Source of the DNA: Parvularia atlantis
Taxonomy: Eukaryota; Opisthokonta; Rotosphaerida
Direction of reading: 5' to 3'
DNA length: 38,909 nucleotides
NCBI GenBank assembly: GCA_943704415.1
Contig: CALSCO010000418.1
Span: 1-38,909, forward strand
Shown piece after piece: positions 173 to 16,565 of this stretch (the first letter of the stretch is position 1; every line of letters starts with the position of its first letter). The position numbers and the translations under genes were made by a program. Under the pieces are notes generated by a model. The model did not search any database. It was not told the DNA's origin and was given only the letters and a program-made list of their open reading frames with translations.

Positions 173-1035
173 ATGTCGGCGTCCGTCTCGGCTGCGCTCT
201 ACGCGGTCGGCTCGTGCTTCTTCATGACGGCGTCGGCGTGCATCCTGCCGGCGCTGCCCGCGGGCGTGGCCGAGGCCGGCAAGCTGCTCTATGTCGCCGG
301 TTCCCTCGCCTTCCTCGCCGCGGCGCTGATGGACCTCCTCGCGGCGCTGCGGCGGCGCTGGGTGGCGGGCGGCGGCGCATCGACTGCGGGCGGCGCGCCG
401 TCGGGCCATCTGCAGCGCGACGACGACGACGAGGGCGACGCGAACGAGGGCGCGGCCGACGCGCTCATCCGCGACAGCAGCGGCGTCAACGCGAGCCCGA
501 TCGCGCCCAAAGCGCCGGCGCCACCGTCGTCGCTGCCGCGCCTCGCCGGCACGACCGAGGCGCTCGTCGTCAGCGCGCTGTTCGCGCTCGGCAGCGCGCT
601 GTTTGTGCTTGGATCGGTCGTGTTCCTTCCCGCCTTCGCCGCGCTCGACCCGCCCGCGCTGCTCACGGGTACGGCCATCTTCAGCTACGGCTGCGGCTGC
701 TACGTCCTCGGCGCCGCCATCGCCGTCGTGCAGCTGCTCTGGCCCTCGACCACGGCGCCCGTCGAGGCGCCGACCGTGCCCAGTGCGCCGCGCGCGCGAT
801 TGGCGCGCCGACGACTGATGATCACTGATCGCGCGCAGACGCCGGGCGGCACAACACCGTCATCCTCACGCTCGTCACGCTCGCGCTGTACGCGGCCGGG
901 TCGCTGCTGTTCATCGTCGGCGGCGTGCTGTACGACAGCGGCATCGACGACGAGGGCGCGGCCGCGCTGTACATCGTGGGCTCGGCGACCTTCCTCGTTG
1001 GCTCCATCTGCGCCATGGCCCTATCGCGGCGGTGA
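173..1035 (+). CDS. Membrane protein with three YrhK-like hairpins
   Basis: This looks like a small integral membrane protein of unknown function. The translation has three similar units, each a pair of hydrophobic segments built on small-residue signatures such as ALYAVGSCFF, LFALGSALFVLGSVVF and LYAAGSLLFIVGGVLY, followed by LLYVAGSLAF or LYIVGSATFLVGS. That pattern recalls the YrhK-like domain, best known as a single hairpin in short bacterial proteins. A charged Asp/Glu-rich loop separates unit one from unit two. One intron (783-838, GTGCGC...GCGCAG, phase 1) must be removed to read the third hairpin; it joins cleanly to AGRHNTVILTLV and the stop is at 1033-1035. I chose the ATG at 173; an upstream in-frame GTG at 158 is an unlikely start. 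The intron argues against bacterial contamination. The family call is moderate and the function is open. Confidence 0.75.
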
Positions 1036-1071
1036 CCTCTGTACAGCACAGGCACAAAGCTCACGTTTCCT

Positions 1072-4000
1072 CTAGCTGGCGCGACGCGCGAAGAAGCCGT
1101 CGATGCGCGCAAGCACGTCCGCGAACGGCACGCCCGCCGCGAACGACTCGGCGATCCAGCCCGGCAGCCGCGCGCGCTTGTGGCTGAAGCGGCGGTCCAA
1201 CAGCACGATCACGGCGTAGTCGTCCCTGTGGCGGATCGCGCGGCCTGCACATGTGCGCAAGCGTGTGAGAAGTGCGCGGCCCTGCGCACCTGCGCGCGAC
1301 ACGCACCGATCGACTGGTTCACGGCCTTCATGCACAGGTTCTCGTAGTACTCGTCGCCCTGCGGTCAACGTGTACCGTCGTCAGCGCGCGGCACCGCCCG
1401 TCATACGCGCACCTGCTGAGGCCGCAGCCAGTTGAGAAAGTCGATCTTGGCGCGCAGCGCCGACGCGAAGCGGTTGGCGTACGGCAGGCCCACGACCACA
1501 ACGCCGCGCCCCATTCGGTCCTTGAAGTTGATGCCCTCGCTCATCTTGCCGTTGACCACGCACAGCAGCATTGCACCGCGCGCCGTCTCCTGTGCGCATC
1601 GCAGTGAGCACGAGATCTTGCACAGCCGAGACGGACGCAACGATGCTCTCGGCGTACGCCGCTAGCGTCGACTCGACCGCCGCGGTCGTGCGAGGCTCAA
1701 CGTAGATCTGGCGGCGCAGTCAGGGCGGGCGCGATCATGGACGTCGCACGCACATGCTTGACCGCCTGCAGCCGCCCGTACAGGCCAGTCGCGCGCCAGC
1801 GCTCGCACAGCTGCTCGACGTAGTCAAACTTCTGGAAGAACACGATGAGACCGTCTGCGCACAGGCATGAGCGAGCGCGTGAAGCTGGGTGGCACGCTGC
1901 AGCGCACCGGGGATGCGCTGCGCCAGCTGCACGAGGCTCTCGCCGACCTCGTCCATCAGGCGCACGTCGCCGCGGCGCTCGAGCACGAGCTTCGCGGCTT
2001 GCGCGGTCAGCAGCAGACGGTCCAGCTATGCGGCGAACCTCAAGGCCGTGGCCGCTGGGCCCCGCATCGACGGCGAGGCACATGACCGACGTCGGCGGCA
2101 CGACGTGGCCACACTCGAAGGCCGTGAAGCGGTCGCTGGGCACCTTTGTGGCGCACGCGTGAGGCCAGGGCCACTGCAAGGCGGAATGCGCGCGCCTTGG
2201 GGAAGAGTAGGTTGCGGAACTCGCTCAGGGGCTTCATCGTGCCGCCGAGGAGCAGCACCGCGCGGGCGCGGCTCACGACGTCCTCGAACGCGCGCGCCGG
2301 GTTGAGCAGGATGAAGCGCATGAGGTCGCCCTGGATCATCACGCGCCCGTCCTGGTCGCTGTGCGCGCACACGCCCACATCAGCCTTGCGCATGGCAGCG
2401 GGCGCGCACACCTGTTGGTCAGTGCCGTCAGGAACGCCTCGACCGCGTGCATCGGCGACGTCGGGCGCACGCCGTCGTGTTCGTCGGCGCCAGTGTGCAT
2501 GGCCACGCCGCGCCCGTCTGCGTGCTCGACAAAGCCGTGCAGCTTGCGCGCGAGCTTGCTCTCATCGAGGAAGCGGCACATCTGAGCGCCGCCGCTGGTG
2601 TCAGCCAATGGCAGCAGCGCAGGGCAGCGGGCGCGAGCCTTGAACAGGTTGATCGTGTCCACATTCGACGAGAAGCCGGTCCAGAAGTCGGCCAGAGTCA
2701 CCACCTGATCGCCCGACGAACCTGGTGCCGCCTTTGCCCGCGCCTGCATGCGCGTCACGAACGCGCCCAGCAGCCGCTCGAGCATCTTGAGCGACACCTG
2801 CCCGACAGCGTTCGCGTCAGCTGCGCACACAGACACGCACGCTGTGCGCACCAGGTTGGCCGACAGCAGCCGCGCGCGGTACCGCTGGATGTAGCGCCGC
2901 AGGTGCGTCAGCGCCTCGTCCGCCTGCGGCAGGGTGAGCGTCGCGCTGTACAGCTCGGCGACCTGCGCGGTTGTGTGCGCGTGTTGGTGACGGCAGCGCA
3001 GGCGTTGTGCATGGGCACACGGTGTCGATGAGGTTGTGCGCCTCGTCGATGACGACAACTTGCTCGTCAAGCTTGATGCCGAGCGACTCGCGCGTGCGCC
3101 GGTGCAGCAGCATCTGGTAGCTGCGCCGTGCGTCTCAGCCGCGCTCCCAGCACAACAATGTGACTGCGCAGCACGCACGGCAGCGTCACCAGCTGCGCCA
3201 CTGGCACCGATGCACGCGTCGCGTAGTACGGACACGACCCGTGGCGGCGGCCAAGCGCAGCAGCCTCCTCGACGTCGGCCTGCATCGCCGTGAGCGCACG
3301 TGCTGCGTGCTACGTCGCGGCCGCACCGGTGCCGTGCGCAGCGCGTAGACTAGCGGCGGCTGGCGCGTCTTGTCGATGTACGGGCAGCGATGCTTGGACG
3401 TGGCGCTCTGCGCATCACTCGGTTGCCGCCAGCATGACGCGACACACACAGGCGCACCTTGGTCTGCATGTCGACGCAGATCTCGTTCACGCGCGTCGCC
3501 GAGCGGTTCAGCTTGTTGACACTGTCGTTGACGCACAGGCTGGCTCGCGAGCCGCGCGTCAGCCGCGTCTCCAAGTGCATGCAAGACGCACTTCTTGCGC
3601 GAGCCGAGCGACACGACAGCGATCTCGGCCGCGAAGCGCGTGCGCTTGAGCTCGCCCAGGAACTGCGCCAGCTGCGAGTGCGTGCGGCTGCAGTAGTAGA
3701 TCTTCTGCACGTGCGGCGCGTCGTCCTCTGCCGCGACGCCGGCGTGAGCAGATGGCTGCTCCCACCCATCAAGCGCACCGTCCGCCGCCAGCACTGCGCT
3801 GTTCAGGCTGCTGCTGTTGTCCTCGTCGACCTCGTCGAGCAGGAACTCTTCGTCGTCGCCCGCAGCGCCGTCGTCGTCGCCCGCTGCCGTCTCGACGCGA
3901 GCGCGTTTCATCGACTGCGCAACCTGTCAGCAGGCGCGTGCACCGCAATCATCGCACGAACGCGCTCGGGCAGCGACGGCGCCGGCGGTGGCGGGCCAAG

Positions 4001-4424
4001 CGGCGGCGGCAGCAGCGCCACGGTGGGCGTCGCGCCGTCGTCTTTGGGCACGAACGCGCGCATCCAGTCCGGATCATCGCCGTTGCCCGCGTCTGCCGCT
4101 GGCGCTGCCGGTCGCCGCGCGTTGTCCAGCAGCCACTGCACGGCGCTGCACAGCAGGCTGAGCGACTTGCCCTGCGGCCCACGCGATCAGAGCCGCGATG
4201 TGGCGCCACAGCGCAATCGGCGCACGGTGCCGGTCGGGCTCTCGAGCACGGCGACCTTGCGCGTCTCGATGGCCTCGTACACGGCCCTCATCAGCGCGAT
4301 CTACGCGGCATCCATCCATCATGAGCCAGAGCGACGCACACGACGCAGAGCACACGACCTGGATCGCGTACGGCGCCGCGTACGGGAAGGCTTCGAATGC
4401 GCTTGGCGCCTCCAACGCAGCCAT
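1072..4424 (-). CDS. DDX11: DDX11/CHL1-type Fe-S DNA helicase
   Basis: This is a superfamily 2 Fe-S helicase of the XPD/FANCJ/DDX11 group, expected to act in the nucleus in sister-chromatid cohesion and replication-fork repair. From the ATG at 4424 it reads [10 protein letters not shown] (Q motif), then ESPTGT-GKS (Walker A), [15 protein letters not shown] (motif Ia), four spaced cysteines (LCVNDSV, ICVDMQ, RCPYI, SCPYY) that would hold the 4Fe-4S cluster, and [13 protein letters not shown] (DEAH box). The helicase C-terminal half has [33 protein letters not shown] and AIGRAIRH-like motif VI, followed by [17 protein letters not shown] and the insert lengths favour DDX11 over XPD or FANCJ. Introns are short and numerous: 4358-4301, and 4225-4172 which cuts the Walker A loop between GT and GK. 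The stop TAG is at 1072-1074. No defect is visible, but some internal exon borders around 3900 and 2400 are approximate. Confidence 0.93.
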
Positions 4425-4513
4425 GTGACAGACGTGGCCGCTTGTCACACTTCCACTGTTACAAATCATCAGCGGCCGAGTCTCTGACGCCACTTATCAA
4501 ATTTACGATAAAT
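4425..4513. promoter_or_regulatory. Bidirectional promoter, DDX11 / UBXN6
   Basis: These 89 bp separate two divergent start codons and must hold both core promoters. The half next to UBXN6 is AT-rich compared with the neighbouring exons and contains an inverted pair TTATC...GATAA (4496-4511). No TATA box at a standard distance is obvious. The role is inferred from position only. Confidence 0.5.
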
Positions 4514-6085
4514 ATGTTCGACGCAGTGCGCAAGCTCTTCACAGGTGATCGCTTCGTTGGTGCGTCGTGCTGCGCGTCGTGCTGCGCGTCGTGCTGCGCG
4601 TCGTTTGGCGCTGAGGCGTGCGTGCTGCAAGGCGCCGACGAGGGCAGGCGACTCGACCAGCCGCAGCCGCGCCCGCCCGCCCCACCCGGCGCCGCGCAGC
4701 CGCCGCAGCAATTGGCCGGCGCGAGCCGCGCGGGGCAGGCGGCGCTCGAGCGTTTTGAGAAGAAGCAGGCGCCGGCGGGCGGGCGCAAGCGGACAGCGAG
4801 CACAAGCGAGAGCGGTGGCGCGCGGTGCGTGGCGGCGGGTGGCGTGGAAGCCGTGACTGATCACGTGGCGCTCTTAGCGACCACAGCGCGGCCACGTCTT
4901 CGCCCGCACAGCCCGCGCAGCCACCTCTGAGTCGGCCGCCGCCGCAGCAGCAGAAGAGAGCAGAGGCGACATATGCGCAGACGCTGCCGGCCGAGCCGCT
5001 CGCCGCCGCCGTTCACAAGCTGCGCTTCCCTGCGACCGACGTGGACGACGCGGCCATCGATGTGCGCGCGCGCGCACGTGCCGCCCATCCGCACATCTGA
5101 ACGCGCGCTTGTGCACGGCAGGGCTGCGTGAAAGTGCTGCTCAAGTACCTCGAGAACGCGCTCACGCATGCCGACGACGACAAGTACCGCCGCATCCGCC
5201 TCGGTAACGCCGTCTTTGTCGACAAGGTCGCGCCCGTGCCCGGTGCACGCGGTGCGCGCCTCTTCGCCCTCTGTTCGCACGGTGGCTTGACGCGTTCGCG
5301 ACGGCAGCGCTGCTCAAGTTTGTCGGCTTCGCCGAGACGCAGGCCAGCCAGGACGAGGGCGGCGCGACCGAGGCGTTCCTGGTCCTGCCCGCGGGCTTCG
5401 ACGCGGCCAAGCTTGAGCGCGCGCGCGAGCTGCTCATGCGCGAGCCCGAGTTCAACCGCGACGTGCACGTGCGTACGGACGCTTTGCGATCAGCGGTGGC
5501 GCTGAGCAGGCGCTGCAGGTGTTTGCGCCGTCTGCCGGGTCCGTCAACACGTTCGCGGATCTGCCGGACTCGTTCTACCAGCTCACGCGCGAGGAGGCCA
5601 TGTATGACATCAAGGCGCGGCGTGCCAAGTGCGTTCGTGCCCGTGGCGTAGCAGCAGACTGACGGGTGCGAGCAGGGCCGAGCTTGAGGCGACGCTGCGA
5701 ACGCGCGAGATGCGCGAGCGCGACGTGCAGAAGAACGCGAGCGCGCCGTCGCCCGTCGCGTGCATCCGCGTGCGTCTGCCGGACGGGTACACCCTGCAGG
5801 GCCGCTTTGCGTCGCGTGAGACCGTTCAGGACGTCTTCACGTTTGTGCGCCAGTGCCTGAGCGACCCCAGCTGGTGCGTCGAGTGTGCCATGCGTTTCCT
5901 GATGCGCTGACATGCGCGCGCACAGCGACTTTGTGCTGATGGCGCCGCCGTCGACGCGTCTGGACGCGGCCAGCACGCTGACGCTGCACGCGGCACAGCT
6001 CACGCCGGCCGTGCTGCTGCACCTGACCGTGCCGAGCGGCGGCGCGGCGCGGCTGTCAGAAGCGCTGCTGGCCATCGTGCAATGA
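4514..6085 (+). CDS. UBXN6: UBXN6/UBXD1-like p97 cofactor (PUB + UBX)
   Basis: This should be a cofactor of the AAA ATPase p97/Cdc48, which binds its C-terminal tail through a PUB domain and acts in endolysosomal and ER-linked degradation. The order of parts matches UBXD1: a short N-terminus (MFDAVRKLFTG), a basic segment with AALERFEKKQ, a PUB domain (VKVLLKYLENAL...KYRRIRLGNAVF...LLKFVGF), a linker with FADLPDSFYQLTREE, and a C-terminal UBX-like fold starting CIRVRLPDGYTLQGRF and ending with LTPAVLLHLTVP. At least six short introns are present; the last one has donor GTGCGTCG after AGCTG and acceptor CACAG before DFVLMAPP. Intron 1 contains a 12-bp tandem repeat. The start ATG at 4514 gives a conserved-looking N-terminus. 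It ends 42 bp before the convergent J-protein gene. Assignment rests on both domains and their order, so I am fairly sure. Confidence 0.88.
4562..4604 (+). repeat. 12-bp tandem repeat in UBXN6 intron 1
   Basis: The unit GCGTCGTGCTGC occurs three times without error, followed by half a copy. It lies inside the first intron of the UBXN6-like gene, in a stretch that is open in the coding frame (reading repeated ASCC). If the intron were retained, the protein would gain a cysteine-rich insert. Confidence 0.85.
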
Positions 6086-6127
6086 TGCATCTGTCTACAT
6101 GTGTGTCTGCTGCGCAGCTGCATCTGT

Positions 6128-7123
6128 TTAGCCTGCTGTGCTCGGCGATGGCAATGCTGCACTCGCCTCCATCGCCACGCTCGGCCCGCCTGCCTCCATC
6201 GCCACGCTCGCCCCGCCTGTGTCGCTCGCTCTTGCAGCGCGCCGTGCGGCACCGAGATCTACGACAACCTCGTCCAGCCCGCGGTCGACCGACGGCACCA
6301 GCTCCCACGGCGTAAAGTACTCGCCGCGCTTGAGCGCGCGTGGCTGCGGCACCTCCCGTGCACCCGCCGGCACGGCCGAAGACGTGTGTCGTCGCTCGAT
6401 CGGAGGCGCGTCGCGCGCAGCAGCCGCGGGCGAGGCGCGCCGCCGATCGAACGACGCCTGCGCCGACGCGGTCCGCGCGGCCGCGACGGGCGGGATGGGC
6501 GGCGGCGGAACCTTGTCCTCGGGCATGAGGAAGAGCAGCATCAGCACGGCGCAGCCCACGCCAGAGATCAGCAGCACGCGCGCCGTCGCGCCCCAGCTGG
6601 TCGAGTAGCGCAGGCTGCCGTGGATACCGTCGCCTGCGTCGTGGAACCTGTGCGCGCGCACGCTGATCGTCAGCACATCACGTGTGCCCACGAGGCAGCT
6701 CGGCGCACTGGTAGTGGTTGCGGTAGTGCGCCGACGCGCTGTTGAAGCCCGAGTACGCCGACGTGTACGGGTTGTAGCCGCGGCTCGTGTTCGCCGTCAC
6801 GCGCAGCGTCGCGTCGTACCTTGCGCGGTCCGCATCTGCCGCGCACGGTGCACTCAACACGGCGATCCGCGCAACCCGGCGGCAGCGGAGGGGGGCGCGC
6901 ACTGTTGGACAGGATCGCGTATGCCTCGCTGATGCGCTTGAACCGCACGGCGTCGCCGTCGGCGCGATCGGGATGCTGCGCGTACGCCATCATCGCCAGC
7001 CGCACAGCCAGTCGCGCGTCTTGCACACACCCATCGCTGCGCCAGCGCACGATACGCGCTGCGCACGTCCTCGGGCGACGCCGTCGGCGCCACGCCGAGC
7101 GTCTCGTAGTGGCACGGCGGCAT
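6128..7123 (-). CDS. J-domain protein with a C-terminal membrane segment
   Basis: This is a type III DnaJ/Hsp40-like co-chaperone that should stimulate an Hsp70 at a membrane. From the ATG at 7123 it begins MPPCHYETLGVAPTASPEDV, then RSAYRALAQRW, an intron, and HPDRADGDAVRFKRISEAYA, so the catalytic HPD tripeptide is intact. After SARYDATLRV there is a Tyr/Asn/Ser-rich stretch (YNPYTSAYSGFNS) and, near the middle of the last exon, a single hydrophobic segment VLLISGVGCAVLMLLFLMP. The Pro/Ala/Arg-rich tail ends with two copies of a nine-residue repeat (GGASVAMEA/GGPSVAMEA). There is no G/F region or zinc finger. DNAJC4-like proteins have a similar J-plus-one-TM layout, but I would not force orthology. 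A GTG codon upstream (7147) is open in frame but is not a likely start. Confidence 0.85.
6165..6218. repeat. 27-bp direct repeat, two copies
   Basis: Two adjacent 27-bp copies (6165-6191 and 6192-6218) differ by one base. On the minus strand they encode the duplicated nine-residue unit SVAMEA-GGP/GGA near the end of the J-domain protein, so the repeat is coding and recent. Confidence 0.85.
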
Positions 7124-7197: not shown

Positions 7198-10100
7198 ATG
7201 GATGCGCGACGACCGTCGATCTTGCGCTCGCTCGAGGCCTTCGCGCCGCCGCCGGACGAGGCGTTTGCGCGCGAGCGCTGCGGTGTGGCGGGCTGCGATT
7301 CGCGGGTGATCGCTGACGGCGTGGTGATGCGCAGACGCCGTTGTGCAGCGGCTGAGCGCGGCGCGTGGCGCGCGTGTGCTATTCGCAGACGTCGTGGCCG
7401 TGCAGTGGCGCAAGGCGCCCAAGATGGTCGAGGTGCTGGCCGTGGTGGATGCGTATGGGCTACTCTTCGTGCACAATGAAAAGGTGGCGTGGCCGTGCTC
7501 CGCGCCACAACCGGCACAAGTTAACCGCGCGTGAGAAGCTGATGTTTACGATCCACCTGCTCGAGCTCATGAGCCTCGTCACGACCAGGCCGACCGAGGT
7601 GGCGTCGGCCGCGCGCTCGCTCGGCTCCGGACGCGTGACGCAGACGCGCGCCCCACCCGCCAGATCACCATCAGCGCGACCATCTCGGCCGTGCCGGCCA
7701 CGTTCTCGAACCATGCGCAGTCACAGAGCACGGCCGTAGGCGACGAGATCGCGGGCGCGGTCGTGCGCGCTTGGGCAGACAGCTTCCCGACCGCGCGCGA
7801 GTGCCCGTTCCAAATTCTCATCCCAGACTCGCGGTGAGAGCGCCAGCATGCCCGCTACTACAGCCGAACTGACAGCGCGTGCTTGCAGATCGGCCGCGAT
7901 CCAGGTCCCGCCATCGCAGCGGCTGCTCGTCTGCGGCGGCGTGATGGAGGCGTACAGCGCCGCGTGCCACTTCATCCCGGGCTTCATCTCGCCGCGCGAG
8001 GACTTTGCCGACATCTTTGAACTGCTGCACGCGCAAGTGCGCCACGCGGCTGCAGAGCGTGCGACGAGTCATCGCTGATCGATCGCCGCAGAGCGTCACA
8101 AGGTTGCGCATGACTAGCTTCCCAAACCTGGACTCGGCGCACCTCGCCGCGCTGCTCCACGCCGTCAAGTTCAACGTGCGCGGTCGCCTGCGTGTGCACT
8201 CATCGCTCACTCATGCAGCGCCGGCAGGCGTACTTCACCGAGCTGATGATGGAGCGCGCCGTCGACTCGATGCGCACGGGCGCGTCGCTGCTGGAGGACA
8301 AGACGTTCGTGCACGCGTACTTGCACAACGACGAAGCACAACTCACGCGGGCGCGCTACGACAGCGTCACCGGCGCCGTCACCGAGATGGCCGAGCTGAT
8401 CCAACCCAAGTACGCCGTCGACGGCGAGCCGGCCGTGCTCGACAGCGGTGCGTGTGCTGGGGCTAGGCTGCACGCTTCGCACCCTGAAGCATTGTGGCAG
8501 GCCTCGCGTTTGACGAGGTGGCCGAGGCGGCGTTCGTCGGCCTGCTCGGCTACAACCGTGCGATCACGAAGGTCGTTGCGCCATCGGTAAGCGCACTGCA
8601 CGGGCAGCTGGCGCCATCTGACACTGCGTGCACACGCGCAGATGGGGCTCACCGCCACGACGTTCCTGCAGCTGCGCGACGCGATGAACGAGCGTGCGTC
8701 GCGCGCCTCATTGTCTGTCAAGTGGCTGGACGTGTCGGACAACGCGATCGGCGACTGTGCGCGCGCACCTGCACGCCTGCGCGGCGCGCTGATGCCGCGT
8801 CGCAGCGGGCGTCGAGGCGCTGGCCGAGGTGCTGGCCGCGCTGCCATACATGCCCGCAGCGCTCGGACTCGCACGGCTCGGCATCACGCGGTGCGCGTCG
8901 TTGTGCGCAATGTACTGCACACGCTTACGCGTCGTCTGCACGCACACGCAGGAAGGGCCGTGCGATGGTCGGCCTGCTCAACGCATTCCGCCGCAACGTG
9001 TTCACGGGCAACTCGCTCAGCGCGCTCAACCTGAGCGACAACAAGTTCGACACCGAGGCGATGTCGGCGCTCGCGGCCTGGCTCGCGCTGCCCAACTGCC
9101 TGCAGGCGCTCGGGCTAGCCAACACGGGCGTGAACCTTGACAAGATCAGCGGTGTGCGCTGCTCGCGTCTGCTGCGATGAGCCGTTGAGCAGCCACTGCC
9201 GCCAGACGCGCTCTCTCGCGGCTGTGTGTCGCAGCTGCGGTGCCTCGACCTGTCGCGCAACGGCATCAAGTCGTGCGCGTCGCTGCTGCTGTTCATGAAG
9301 ACGTCGCAGTCGCTGCAGGCGCGTCCTGCCGTGCTGTTGCCGGGTGCGCTGCGCTGATCGGGCGTCTCCGCAGATCCTCGACCTGTCGCAGAACCCGCTC
9401 GTCGTCGACAGCCTGCAGGACCTGCTGCGCACGCTCATTGTCAACTTCTCGCTCTTTGACGTCGACCTGCGCCTGTGCAACATCGGGCTGGACGCCGACG
9501 GCGGTGCGGGACAGCGAAGCGTGCTCGGCGTTGCGCTCACGCTGCCGTCGCAGCCGAGGTCATCTTCGCGATGATCTCAAACAACATCCGCAAGCTCAAC
9601 GTAGGCGACAACCGGCTCGGCGCGCAGGGCCTCGAGGTCGTCGGCAGCGGCATGGCCGTCAACACGAGCCTGACGGAGCTGCGCGTGGACCGCTGCTTTT
9701 TTGTGCGCCTCGAGCCTGTGCCTAGCCATTGAACTGCTGACGCGCGACGTACCGCAGGCGCCGAAGAAGCAGCAGCGCTTTGTCGACAGCTTCTGCACGT
9801 TCCTGCGCAGCAACACGACGCTCAAGTATCTCTCGATGCGCGGCGACCCCGCGACGTGCCTGCGAGCAGAGCTGGTATGCTCACTGTATGCCGCTGTGCA
9901 CCGCCCGCTGACGCTGAAGGCGCGCAGATCCCGATCATCGAGGAGCTGGCAAAGAGCAAGCTCGTCGCGGTCGACATCACGGGCCACGAGGCCGGCGACG
10001 CGCTCGGCGTGACGATCGGGCGGTGCGCCTAGACCCGCCCGCGCCGGCCGCACTTACTCACCACCCGTCTCGCGCTGCCCAGCGTGCTCAAGGCCAACAA

Positions 10101-13100
10101 GACCCTGCGTGCGCTGGACTACGACTTCAACGGCGTGGGAGCGCACGGTCTCGAGTACATCCGCGAGGGCCTCGACAGCAACACGACGGTGCACGTCCTG
10201 TCGATCCCCGTGCACGACATCGCGACTATGACCAAGTCGAGCAAGAGCAACAAGTCGGCCATCACGGCGATCGTGCGCGCGATCGAGGCGCGCCTGGCCG
10301 CCAACGCCGCTGCCCTGGCCAACCCTGTGGCGGCGGCGTCTGCCGCACCTACGACCTCTGCGATGACCGCCGCCGCGTCGGCCGCCGCCCCCGACGGCGT
10401 GCGTGCGCGCAACCGCGCCTCGATGGGTGCGATCGTGTGCAGACGCGTTGCGGGTGCGCTGATGGCTGCATCCGCGCAGCTCGGCCGTCTCTCACGGGTG
10501 CGCTGCTGCCGGCGCCCGGCGGTGACGCGCGCCGGCTGACGATTTTCTCGGGCGGCGACCTGAAATACGTCGTGCGTGCACTGGGCGCCGCTCGGTGTGC
10601 GCTCGCCTCACCGCGCGCGGCGCAGAACACGGCGCGGCAGCGCGAGCTCGACAACATGGTGCACCGCATTCGGTGCACCGGCCGCACGCTCACGCCCGAG
10701 CAGGAGAAGGGTGCGGCTCGCAATGCATGAGCTTCCGTGGCCGCTGAGTCGCTGCGGCGCGGCAGTCTTCGGCGATGTCGCGTATCACACCGAGTCGCTC
10801 GGTGCGCTGCAGCTGCACCAGGAGGCCGTGCTCGACCAGCTCAACACGGACCTGCAAAAGCTGGCTGAGAAGCTGGCCAAGGTGAAACGGCGGAAGGGAG
10901 CGAATTTGGGTCGTGCTGACCTGCCGCCGCGAGCAGGACGCGTCCGAGCTGATCACCAAGGCGCACGCGGCGATCGAGAGCGAGGCGCTCGAGGCCGCGC
11001 GCTCCAAGTACAAGTCTGTCGGCTCCGACGCGCAGGGTGCGCCGGCCATGCCTGCCGTGGTCTATGAGTGTTCACCGCCTGGTGCACCAGCATCGCTCGC
11101 CAACACGCTGACGGCGACGTGCCCGCCGTACTCGAGCGACTTGATCGCTAAGGCGGCCGCCGACACGTGCCATCTCGGGTGCGCCTGAAGCCTGGCGCAG
11201 TCGTGCGCGCTCATCGACGGCGGCAGGTGGCGCCGGCTCGAGGCCGAGGCATCGCGCGTGCTGATGAGCGTCTACGCGAACTTCCTATACGACACGTTCC
11301 AGTCGGGCCTCGAGGTGCCGTCGCCCCTACTCGGCAGCCTGCGCCTCGTTGAGCCACCGACGCTGCGCCAAGGGCGTCCTGCAGGGCATCGTGGCCGAGG
11401 GGCGCGAGCGGCTCGAGTCGTCGGTCACGAGCGGCACCGCGCGGCCGGGCACGCAGTGCGCGCTTCGTCGCGTGCACCGCGCACGCGTGCATGACGCTGT
11501 GCGCAGAGGACGCGCGGCCGGGGCGGTCGGCGCATCGGCAGCAGGGTCTGTGCGCGGCGGGCCGACGGGGCCGGGCGGCCGCAAGCTGGTGTTGACGAAC
11601 GACCCGAGCGAGGACCAGCTGCTCGTGCTGCCGGACGAGGACTGGGTGCGTCTGGCCCCCCTCGCGCCCGGCACGCGATCGTGCGGCTCACGTACCTGAG
11701 CTCGGCCAGGACTCGAGCGGCGACGAGCTGGAGAAGATCATGGCCACGGGCGACATCGACCAGGATAAAGTGCGGCACCAGCTGCTGTTTGGTGCGGCGC
11801 GCGCGCTGGCCGGCGAGAGAGCGTGTCTCACGATGATGCACGCGGCCTAGGCTTCCCCGTGCGCGTGCACAACAACGATGGCACGCGCAAGAACACGGGC
11901 GCGCAGTGTCAGCTGTACTGCGACATCGAGCTCAAGAAGCTCATGTGGCGCAGGCCGTACCAGAAGCACGACAGCAAGGTACGCACGTGCGCTGCGCGAG
12001 GACAGCGGCTGACAGCGGTCGCAGGACACGGTGCTCGTGGGCGACATTGTCGGCATCCACGCCGGCAAGGACATGGGCAAGCACTTCCGCGACACGAAGA
12101 GTGCGTCGCCGCACGTGTCCAGCGGCTGGACCCACTGATGGCGTTGCCACTGCAGACCTGCCCGACAACCGCTGCTTCTCGATCCTCACGCCAACATTCA
12201 CGCTCGACCTCGAGGCGCCCACATCGAAGCAGCGCGCCAAGTGGGTCTTTGCGCTGCAGCTGCTGGTCGGTGGCCTGATCAAGACGGAGGAGGAGGAGGA
12301 CGGTGTGAGGCAAACTGCGCGCACCGCTGGCCGTGGGTCTCATGCACGTGCCCGCAGACGAGGACGACTACGAGTTTGTCTCCAGCAACGACCTCAAGTC
12401 ACCTACGAACGCCGCGCAAGAGGAAGAAGAGGAAGAGGAGGACGACGACGAGGACGAGTACGACGACAAGCCGCCCGCTCCGCAGCCGCCACCGCAGCAA
12501 GCCAAGCCTGCAGGTGCGCGCTCTGGCGGGCACGATCACACGTCTGACCTCGTCGCGCGGGCACAGCTGCGGCGTTTGTGCCGCGCCCGCTACCTGCCGT
12601 ACCGACGGTTGTCTCCAGCGCTGCGCAGGTCGTCCCGCACGCATCTGGCGCGATCGCCGGATGGGCCGCCGGTGCGCACTTTCTCGTTGCACGCGCGTGC
12701 GGTGCTGACAGGTGCACAGCGTACGCGTCGTCGGCAGCCACAGCAGCGCCGGCATCGGCAGCACCGCCGCCGCGCACGACCGTCTCGACCACGGGGACGA
12801 GTTCGCAGACGCAGATCGAGCTTGTGCGCGCTGCACTATCCTCGCCTGCGTACGCTTACTCGCACGCGCGCAGAGCCCGATCGTCCCGGCAGAGCGCCCG
12901 CAGGCCAACACGGTGTCTGCCGCGCTAAGCAAGTTTGGCACACCGGCACCGCGCCTGTCCAAGGGTGCACCCTGCTGCTGCTTTGTCTAGCCGATCTGAC
13001 CGGCACACTGTGTGCAGCACCGTCGCCGACCGCCGCATCGCAGACCGCCCTGACCGCGCCGGTGGCTCCGCTGCCCAGGGCGGGCGACTCGGGCCTCACA

Positions 13101-16100
13101 CACGTGCGCGCGCTTACCTGCGCCCGGGCCGCGCACTGACGATTCCGCGCGCCAGCTCAACCTCACACGGCCGAGCGGGCCCAAGCGCCGCAAGCCGATG
13201 CAGCAGGTGCACTACCGCGACGCCGTGGCCGCTTCGGATGCGCACGCGCCCGAGCAGACCGAGGAGGCGGGCGATGCCGACGGCGCCAAGGTGCCGCCAT
13301 CGTCATCTGCGCGCGCAATCGCGGCTGATGTGCTCGTGCGCCAGCCGCAGGCGCGCAAGGCCGACGGGGGTGCGATCCAGGTCAAGTACGGCAAGCCGCA
13401 GGCGGGCGGCGACCTCACGCAGGAGTTCCTCAGCCGCGTGCGCGTGCGCGAAGAGTCGGGCGCGGTGCGTTTGGTAAGCAGCGGACGGAGAGAGCGCTGA
13501 TCCGCGAGCACGCAGACGGCCGCGCGGCTGACCAAGAGCGGCGACATTGTCACGGACGCGCCCGCACATACGACGCGGCTGTACATCATCAAGGGCCGGC
13601 GCGCGATCCGGCCGCGCCTGGTGAGCGCACGCGCGTGTGCCGTGCCGTACGCGCTCTGACGGCACGGGGGCAGGTCGAGTGCACGCACAAGTCGCTCAAC
13701 GACGGCGACGCGTTTGTGCTCGACGCGCCCAAGACCGGTGCGCACTCGTGCTCGCACAACGGCACGCGCGACTGATGGGGCGTGTCGGCTGCAGTTTTCG
13801 TGTGGTACGGGCGCAACGCCAACAAGATCGAGCGCGGCGCGGCGGCCAAGTTCGGCACCGACTACAAGAACGAGACGCGCAAGGGCCTCGTGAACGTGGT
13901 CTACGTCGGTGCGCATAGCTGACGCGCTTGCGGAATCGGCAGCAGCGCGCCCACTGGCAGCCGCAGAGCCGCACGCGCTCCCGTCCGTGCACAAGGCGTT
14001 CTGGGAGGCGCTCGGCGGCGAGGGCGAGATCGCGTCGGAGGAGCAGGGCGGCAACGACATTGTCGTGGAGAACGCAGTCAGGGCGTCGCTCGTGCTCAAC
14101 AAGTACGCGCTGCGCTCGCACAAGCCGCTCGGCCTGACACCATCGCGCCCAGGTTTGCCGCGGGCGAGAGCGGCGCCATGCAAATGACGCGCGCCAACGT
14201 GGGCGGCGAAGAGCTGGGGCGTGGCATGATCGAGTACGGCTCAGCGTCGGTCATGGTGCTCGACGCGGTCACCGAGGTGTACGTCTGGGAGGGCAAGGGC
14301 ACAACCAAGGCGTGCCGTGACGCGGCCAAGGAGCACATCACGGTGCGCCGGGTGGTGGTGCCGCACTCGTGCGTGCCTGACCCGTCCGCGACCAGGCGCT
14401 CCGCAAGCAGCGCCCGGCGTGGACGCTGTTTGAGACGATGCGCGAGGGCCAGGAAGCGCTCACATTCCGGCTCAAGTTTGCCGACTGGCCCGAGCCCGGC
14501 AAAGAGGCCGAGCTGCGGCGGCGCTCGCAGGGTGCTGGCAATGCCCGCAACCGCAAGTCGCTCAAGAGCTTCGACATCGGTACCATGTTCGCCGCGGCCG
14601 CGGCCACCGACACGGCCGAGAAGAAGAAGAAGGCGCGGGCGGAGCGCACTGTGGGACGTCGCGCGGGTTCTGACTGTTGCCGCGCACCGCAGGCCGACGC
14701 GGGCTGGTTCGACACACACGAGCAGGTCACGGTCGACAAGTACGACGACGGCAAGGGCCAGCTGGAGGTGCGTGGCCCGTACGCGCCCGCTGCGTGAGCT
14801 GCTGATACGCCGCGCCGCAGATCTGGATCGTCAGCGACAAGTCCAAGCTCGTACCCGTGCCCGCAGGCGCCGGTGGCCAGTTCCACACGGCCGAGACGTA
14901 CGTGCTCTCGTACGTGTGGACGTACAAGGAGAAGAAGCGCTGCCAGTTGTACTGCTGGCAGGGGCACTCGTGCAACGGCGTGCGTGCGGCGCGCCTGATC
15001 TGCGCGTGTCGCGTGCTCACTGCGATTCGCGTGTGCTGCAGAACAAGAAGGGCAGCGGCATGCTGCTGATGCAGGAGATGCTCGAGACGCAGCGCCGGTC
15101 AAAGGAGTTTTACGAGGACCCGGTCTCGGTGTGTGCGCGCCTCGCCGGGTGCGGCGGTGGGCTGACGCTGTGTGCAGCGGCGCGTGCTGCAGTTTAAGGA
15201 GAATGAGCACTTCCGCAAGCTGTTTGCAGGCCGCATGGTGTACCTGCAGGTGCGGCCGTGCACACCGAGCGCGACGCGCGCCGACTGAGCGGCGAGGCAG
15301 GGGCCGGCGGGCGAGGCCACGGAGAACCACGCCGTGCAGCTGTTCCACCTCAAGCCACGCAGCGGCGCGCCCGCGCACGACGTTGTGGCGGTCCAGGTCG
15401 AGCTGGTACGCCGTGCCCGTACGTGCCATGCGCACGCGCTGACGAGCGGGTGGCGTGCGCAGTCGGCGGCGGGCCTCAACTCGCGCGACGTGTTTGTGCT
15501 GCACACGGCCGCGATGCAGTACGTCTGGTTCGGCAAGGGTGCGCGTGACGACGAGCGCAAGCGGGCACTGGCCGTCGCCGAGGCCATCAAGGTGCGCAGG
15601 CGCCGTAGCATACCGCTACCACCGCCAAAGCGTACGCGCGCAGGCAGGCCGCAAGCAGGAGGTGATGGACGAGGGCAAGGAGAAGAGCGCGTTCTGGGCG
15701 ACGCTCGGCGGGCAGGAGCACTACGCGAGCGCCGACTACCTGCGCGACGGCAACTGGACGCCGAAGCTGTTTGAGTGCACGCTCGCAACGGGCGAGTACA
15801 CGGTGCGGCACAAGAGCGGCGCCGGCCGCGTGGCTAAAGGGCGCAGGCCGAGCGCATTGCGCCGTTCACGCAGGACGACCTCTCGGTCGAGTACGTCTAC
15901 ATCCTCGACGTGTTTCACGAGATCTACGTGCGCTCCTTCCGCGCTGCTCGGCGGTGGTACTCACGGGACGCGCAGGTCTGGGTGGGCTCGTCGGCCGACA
16001 AGGAGCTGGTCAACATGACCATGCGCATCGCCGTCGACTACCAGCGCATGGCGTCTGACGGGCGCCCGAACGACGAGTCGTCCGTGCTGTTTGTGCAGCC

Positions 16101-16565
16101 CGTGCGTGGCCCGCGCCGCTCGACCGCGTCCGTGGACCGCCTCATGGTGCGCCGTCGCAGGGCGCCGAGCCGCTCATGTTCACGTGCCACTTCCTCGGCT
16201 GGATCGGCCTCGCGCGGCTACGCAACCGGCAGCAGCAGCGGCGGGCCGTGCGCGAGCTGCTTGAGTGCGTGCACCCGAGTGCCACACCGTGCGGCTGACG
16301 GCAGCGCGCGGCACAGGCTGCAGGAGAGCAAGTTTCCGTACAAGGAGCTGATCAAGCGCCCGCCGCCGCCCGGGCTGGACGTGTCGCGGCTCGAGGTGCG
16401 GCGTGCACGCCCGCTGCCCGTGCCGCTGACGCGCGCGGGCCGTCGCGCCAGACGTATCTGGACGACAAGGAGTTTGCTGAGGTGTTCCTGATGCCGCCGG
16501 CGCAGTTTGCCAAGCTGCCCGAGTGGATCCGCACCAACAAGAAGGTCGAGGTCGGCCTCTATTAA
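7198..16565 (+). CDS. CARMIL-type LRR / PH / gelsolin-repeat / villin-headpiece fusion protein
   Basis: This is a predicted actin regulator of roughly 2,300 residues. About 7198-7830 encodes a CARMIL-type N-terminal PH fold (VLFADVVAVQWRKAPKMVEV, FTIHLLELMSLVTTRPTE, ITISATISAVPATFS). 8100-10300 holds the leucine-rich repeats (LSALNLSDNKFDTEAMSAL, LRCLDLSRNGIKS, ILDLSQNPLVVDSL, IRKLNVGDNRLG), closing with a CARMIL-like HVLSIPVHDIATMTKS cap. 10550-11700 is helical, in the place of the CARMIL dimerisation region. 11840-12310 is a second PH domain (CQLYCDIELKKLMWRRPYQK, CFSILTPTFTLDLEAPTSK, WVFALQLL). An acidic then Ala/Pro/Ser-rich linker leads to five or six gelsolin repeats (RLYIIKGRRAIRPRLV, SLNDGDAFVLDAPKTVFVWY, VYVWEGKGTT, LNSRDVFVLHTA). 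The end is a villin headpiece (YLDDKEFAEVF...VGLY, stop 16563-16565). Dozens of introns occur; those I followed across every domain border keep frame. Two genes misjoined is the alternative, but no stop or promoter gap is seen. Confidence 0.85.

Follow-up and report, generated by a model that had tools for sequence, protein, structure and literature searches.

A gene of Parvularia atlantis is predicted to encode a CARMIL joined to a villin-type module that lacks the first gelsolin repeat (G1), with a motif resembling the capping-protein-interaction (CPI) motif at the joint; this combination was found nowhere else within reach of the searches. If this reading is true, two barbed-end systems are placed on one chain: capping protein (CP), along with CARMIL as its regulator, and the gelsolin superfamily. 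The arrangement also suggests that a villin without G1 can leave capping to CP via a short motif.

Gene model and domain order

The window, which is the whole of one contig (C107; 38,909 nt, G+C 65-73% along its length), belongs to a draft assembly that totals 16.25 Mb over 616 contigs and is eukaryotic by its introns and gene content. The coding region spans 7198..16565 of the + strand (ATG 7198 to TAA 16565), where the splice model places 54 exons in one open frame of 2196 aa, in agreement with the phase-consistent exon chain of the original prediction. The codon usage and the intron signals (GTGCG ... CTGAY ... GCAG, median intron 53 nt) of the model were both self-trained. Intron signals scoring at least 8 occur 22 times in the first splice model; the reverse strand of this 9.4-kb stretch has none, and the antisense strands of predicted genes, 74.9 kb in total, have 8. 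Three changes were made by hand to this first model: (i) intron 7469-7538, now 7484-7535, (ii) the acceptor of the intron starting at 11315, moved from 11372 to 11384, and (iii) intron 12578-12628 (score 2.6, in frame), kept as coding. The refined model has 53 introns; several domain and homology searches were run with an earlier version of 2183 aa, whose residue numbers fall 13 short of the present ones in the C-terminal half. The neighbouring genes (window 173-7123 and 16608-38877) are named by reading alone and include a helicase, a DnaJ, a proline-rich protein, a methyltransferase, a MAP kinase, PEX16-like and calcineurin A-like proteins and two long proteins; the DnaJ model lies 74 nt upstream of the fusion gene and is divergent.

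By its sequence features the N-terminal half is assigned to the CARMILs proper. The CARMIL-type leucine-rich repeats (LRRs; 8569..10245, aa about 342-744, start approximate) match Pfam LRR_6 and the CARMIL1 structures 9ec0_A (E 9.5e-32) and 4k17_A (E 1.5e-31), which supports an LRR of CARMIL rather than canonical type, and they are preceded by the CARMIL linker or LRR N-cap (VCGGVMEAY...; 7929..8280, end approximate). Other parts of this half are assigned with less certainty. The N-terminal region (7198..7834, aa 1-168) occupies the place of the noncanonical PH of CARMIL by position only, as this domain is not detectable by sequence in aa 1-168 with Pfam or homology comparison. A region that reads as helical by composition (10626..11447) lies where CARMILs have their dimerisation domain, and its similarity to the CARMIL P0010 is no greater than that of a coiled-coil control. 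A second PH-like region (11853..12286, aa about 1093-1203) has weak matches to Pfam PH (E 0.014, below the cut-off) and to the structure 1mai (E 0.011). The CSI motif and MB domain are absent from invertebrate and protozoan CARMILs, as stated in an excerpt of PMC13208823. When the genome was searched with the CARMIL half, all of the 20 matches listed were the fusion gene's own exons; the search compares single exons and scored 12 candidates, so that another CARMIL, if diverged, may have escaped it.

The C-terminal half carries five gelsolin repeats, G2-G6 (13576..16202), found by Pfam as two plus three matching stretches, and a villin headpiece (16333..16562; Pfam core aa 2161-2196, VHP 41.7 bits versus a cut-off of 27). 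Villin 9jus aligns from its own residue 133, which corresponds to G2, through to its C-terminus, and G1 is missing from the fusion protein. Of the five or six repeats plus headpiece that had been predicted, five and the headpiece thus stand, while the six repeats of villin are not present. In villin, G1 is tied to capping and nucleation. Severing by the gelsolin part is unlikely, and this reading is rejected, because G1 is absent; the barbed-end severing or capping foreseen for this half is not upheld. The headpiece has an Ile next to the conserved Trp, where the three headpiece paralogues examined have a Lys. As the lysine beside this Trp takes part in filament binding, the headpiece's own binding to filaments may be weak.

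In a tree of ten gelsolin modules (P0005 left out), the fusion module groups with a villin (L032) and two other proteins of the same genome (L030 and L031) and with the LRR-villin P0001; the order inside this group is not resolved, and the branch of the fusion protein is among the long ones, which makes its place unsure. The group is separated from supervillin-type proteins by a 100/100 split. Supervillin membership, suggested by eye in some stretches, is rejected as the fusion protein falls on the other side of this split, subject to its long branch and unsure place. A class-4 coronin identity is likewise rejected, as no WD40 family is found in the fusion protein by Pfam, whereas L030 of the same genome does match, and a flightless-I identity is rejected on the basis of a CARMIL-type LRR with five repeats versus a canonical LRR with six.

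The linker and its CPI-like motif

The linker opens with an acidic stretch (12287..12473) and continues as a proline/alanine-rich sequence that includes RPLPAVP (12584..12604, aa 1267-1273), which fits the class I SH3-ligand pattern; this heptapeptide was spliced out with intron 12578-12628 in the first model and is kept in the refined one. The linker also contains the CPI-like motif LTHLNLTRPSGPKRRKP (13095..13197, aa 1387-1403), which is split by intron 13104-13155 and stands about 90 aa before G2. Compared to the CPI consensus, LXHXTXXRPK(6X)P (given in an excerpt of PMC2897767), LTHLNLTRPSGPKRRKP fits five of the seven fixed positions (L, H, R and both prolines), with N in place of T and S in place of K. 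A CPI motif had been sought in the linker, and a CPI-like one was found there; its place after the region that reads as helical, with R but not T and K, is a further feature of CARMIL membership.

A scan of 68 proteins (95,745 aa) for matches at five or more of the seven positions returned four: the fusion protein, L031, P0010, which as a CARMIL with 6/7 positions is the positive control, and P0008, where the match (residue 705) is far from the repeats. A scan of 21,187 positions, taken from every protein predicted in the window and in the fetched loci, returned only the fusion protein and L031. The motif in front of G2 is the sole match of the fusion protein at this threshold. Shuffling gives p = 0.021 for the fusion protein and 0.010 for L031, and p = 0.0046 for the linker of the fusion protein alone, a piece picked after the match was seen. 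The CPI peptide alone has no match among PDB chains.

The paralogue L031 (G000:C148, 2204-8326) carries a CPI-like motif, G2-G6 and a headpiece behind an N-terminus that reads as coiled-coil-like; it has no CARMIL part. Its motif, LTHLTVGRAKGPKRR, is at the same place, in front of G2, inside one exon (L031:4300-4344) and about 137 aa before the repeat. This motif (LTHLTVGRAKGPKRRAA) likewise fits 5/7 positions, here with T and K and without either P. Of the sequence that the two proteins have in front of G2, the CPI-like block is the longest conserved stretch, with identity at 11 of 18 residues, and the rest of the linker is poorly alignable.

The CP beta encoded on C52 aligns to CapZ beta (1izn_B) and keeps R15 and Y79, which are described as essential CPI contacts in an excerpt of PMC6249002; in this gene model the piece between the aligned stretches is doubtful. 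A family search of the genome for CP alpha gave no match and says little, since its controls gave none either. The repertoire of the genome comprises a villin, L032, and the severin-like proteins L033 and L035, all three named by reading and BLAST. The genome also encodes a class-4 coronin (villidin)-like protein with WD40, PH, gelsolin repeats and headpiece (L030; G000:C148, 1350-8651, - strand), and there are further matches to a headpiece on C378 and to gelsolin on C72.

One gene or two

A single gene across 7198-16565 is well supported by intron signals and frame, and one transcript is predicted. It is improbable that two tandem genes, a CARMIL ending in the second PH and an acidic tail and a G2-G6-headpiece protein, have been read as one. 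The best two-gene model (stop 11188, ATG 11264) scores only 6.1 nats lower (1063.3 versus 1069.5), a difference that does not decide the matter alone; the two-gene model carries no penalty for the extra gene, and its parameters were trained on the one-gene model. In favour of two genes, the genome is compact, and 108-1112 nt separate same-strand neighbours in the 7 pairs whose genes score at least 60, one of which spans the weaker DnaJ model. A further point against a single gene is the coding signal, which is weakest in the linker between the second PH and the CPI-like motif, where the codon scores of exons 12629-12671, 12720-12823 and 13018-13103 are near zero. Retention of intron 12965-13017 would lead to a stop at 12990 behind ...SKGAPCCCFV, with an ATG following at 13198. 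This split, however, scores 10.4 nats lower, loses two introns, each with a score of 8.3, and cuts the CPI-like motif away, which L031 carries before G2 in one open exon; the other split listed after the second PH (12547/12661) is 16.7 nats lower. Moreover, the 657 nt from 12514 (12514-13170) hold six intron signals of at least 7.5, five of which are introns of the model, compared to a mean of 0.125 and at most 2 in 200 shuffles; the antisense strands of predicted genes yield 10 over 74.9 kb, or 0.133 per kb. A separate CARMIL would also have no CPI motif, as the sole 5/7 match stands in front of G2.

An assembly chimera of two unlinked genes is very improbable: while the genome is a draft in 616 contigs, the introns and frame continue through the joint, and the window has no N run and no break in composition. 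The ...SKGAPCCCFV end (window 12965-12990) is CaaX-like and may mark a CARMIL-only isoform or be due to chance.

Proposed function and relation to known proteins

The single gene probably encodes a CARMIL whose C-terminal tail gave way to, or recombined with, a villin module without G1. The CPI motif would bind CP, and G2 through the headpiece would bind filaments. The CARMIL half may serve as a membrane-proximal scaffold. As in other CARMILs, the CPI motif would weaken the hold of CP on barbed ends and free CP from its inhibitor, while G2-G6 and the headpiece would bind the sides of filaments; a single chain would thus keep CP, together with its regulator, at actin filaments. The regulation of CP that had been predicted gains support from the motif in the linker, and a role that joins CP regulation to filament binding is supported at the level of sequence.

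That the fusion is real and its CPI-like motif does not bind CP, which would leave only a membrane-filament scaffold, is unlikely, although two of the seven fixed positions differ. One of these is a lysine whose importance is known from other proteins: in another CPI protein, CP binding was abolished when the marked R and K were both changed (excerpt of PMC10381072), and changing a conserved lysine cut binding by the twinfilin tail about 30-fold (excerpt of PMC6249002). The missing lysine thus counts against strong CP binding. The consensus by itself, moreover, binds CP weakly, and the flanks matter (excerpt of PMC2897767). By contrast, the same kind of motif is kept in L031 within an otherwise poorly alignable linker, the arginine is retained and the CPI site of CP beta is intact. 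In the CARMILs of Dictyostelium, one invariant arginine of the CPI motif is essential (excerpt of PMC9270954); we identify this residue with the consensus R, and both the fusion protein and L031 keep that R. A broader form of the proposed binding is tentative and rather doubtful: that the G1-less villins of this lineage (two genes) took up CPI motifs, with recruitment of CP replacing the lost G1, and that CARMIL survives only as such a fusion, both regulating CP and holding it on filaments.

Among known proteins, the class-4 coronins (villidin of Dictyostelium) share an actin-regulating N-terminus, a PH, gelsolin repeats without G1 and a headpiece, while a coronin propeller occupies the place of CARMIL. 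The original prediction, a CARMIL followed by a C-terminus like that of villidin, holds down to the missing G1, which class-4 coronins have also lost; according to an excerpt of PMC3203266, their gelsolin domains have no part in capping or nucleation. The villidin-like L030 has no CPI match at 5/7. CARMIL (LRRC16A) and the Dictyostelium CARMIL-GAP share the CARMIL LRR and CPI motif, and CARMIL-GAP is a precedent for a CARMIL with an added domain (excerpt of PMC9270954). Unlike the fusion protein, none of the CARMILs found in the protein and structure searches has gelsolin repeats or a headpiece. Supervillin resembles the fusion protein in its repeats from G2 onward and its headpiece and lacks the CARMIL part. 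Flightless-I and the LRR-villin P0001, which also has a headpiece, place LRRs before gelsolin repeats; their LRRs, however, are of the canonical families PF23598, PF12799 and PF13855. L031 is alike from the CPI-like motif onward and differs in its coiled-coil-like N-terminus without CARMIL.

No CARMIL-gelsolin or CARMIL-villin protein is named in the titles and abstracts of the literature searched. A protein database search with the CARMIL half returned one protein, which is NLRC3-like. A two-row profile search returned 54 matches, of which none combines CARMIL-type LRR families with gelsolin; the only one with gelsolin repeats is flightless-1, with canonical LRRs, and one bears a CARMIL_C domain while none is named CARMIL. 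The view that no described protein has exactly this order is thus uncontradicted within a limited reach, and the absence is weak evidence since these searches, which were word-seeded and scored about 8000 candidates each, missed most known CARMILs. Another apparent CARMIL fusion is the database protein P0014 (1821 aa), in which a RhoGEF domain (PF00621) precedes a CARMIL-type LRR.
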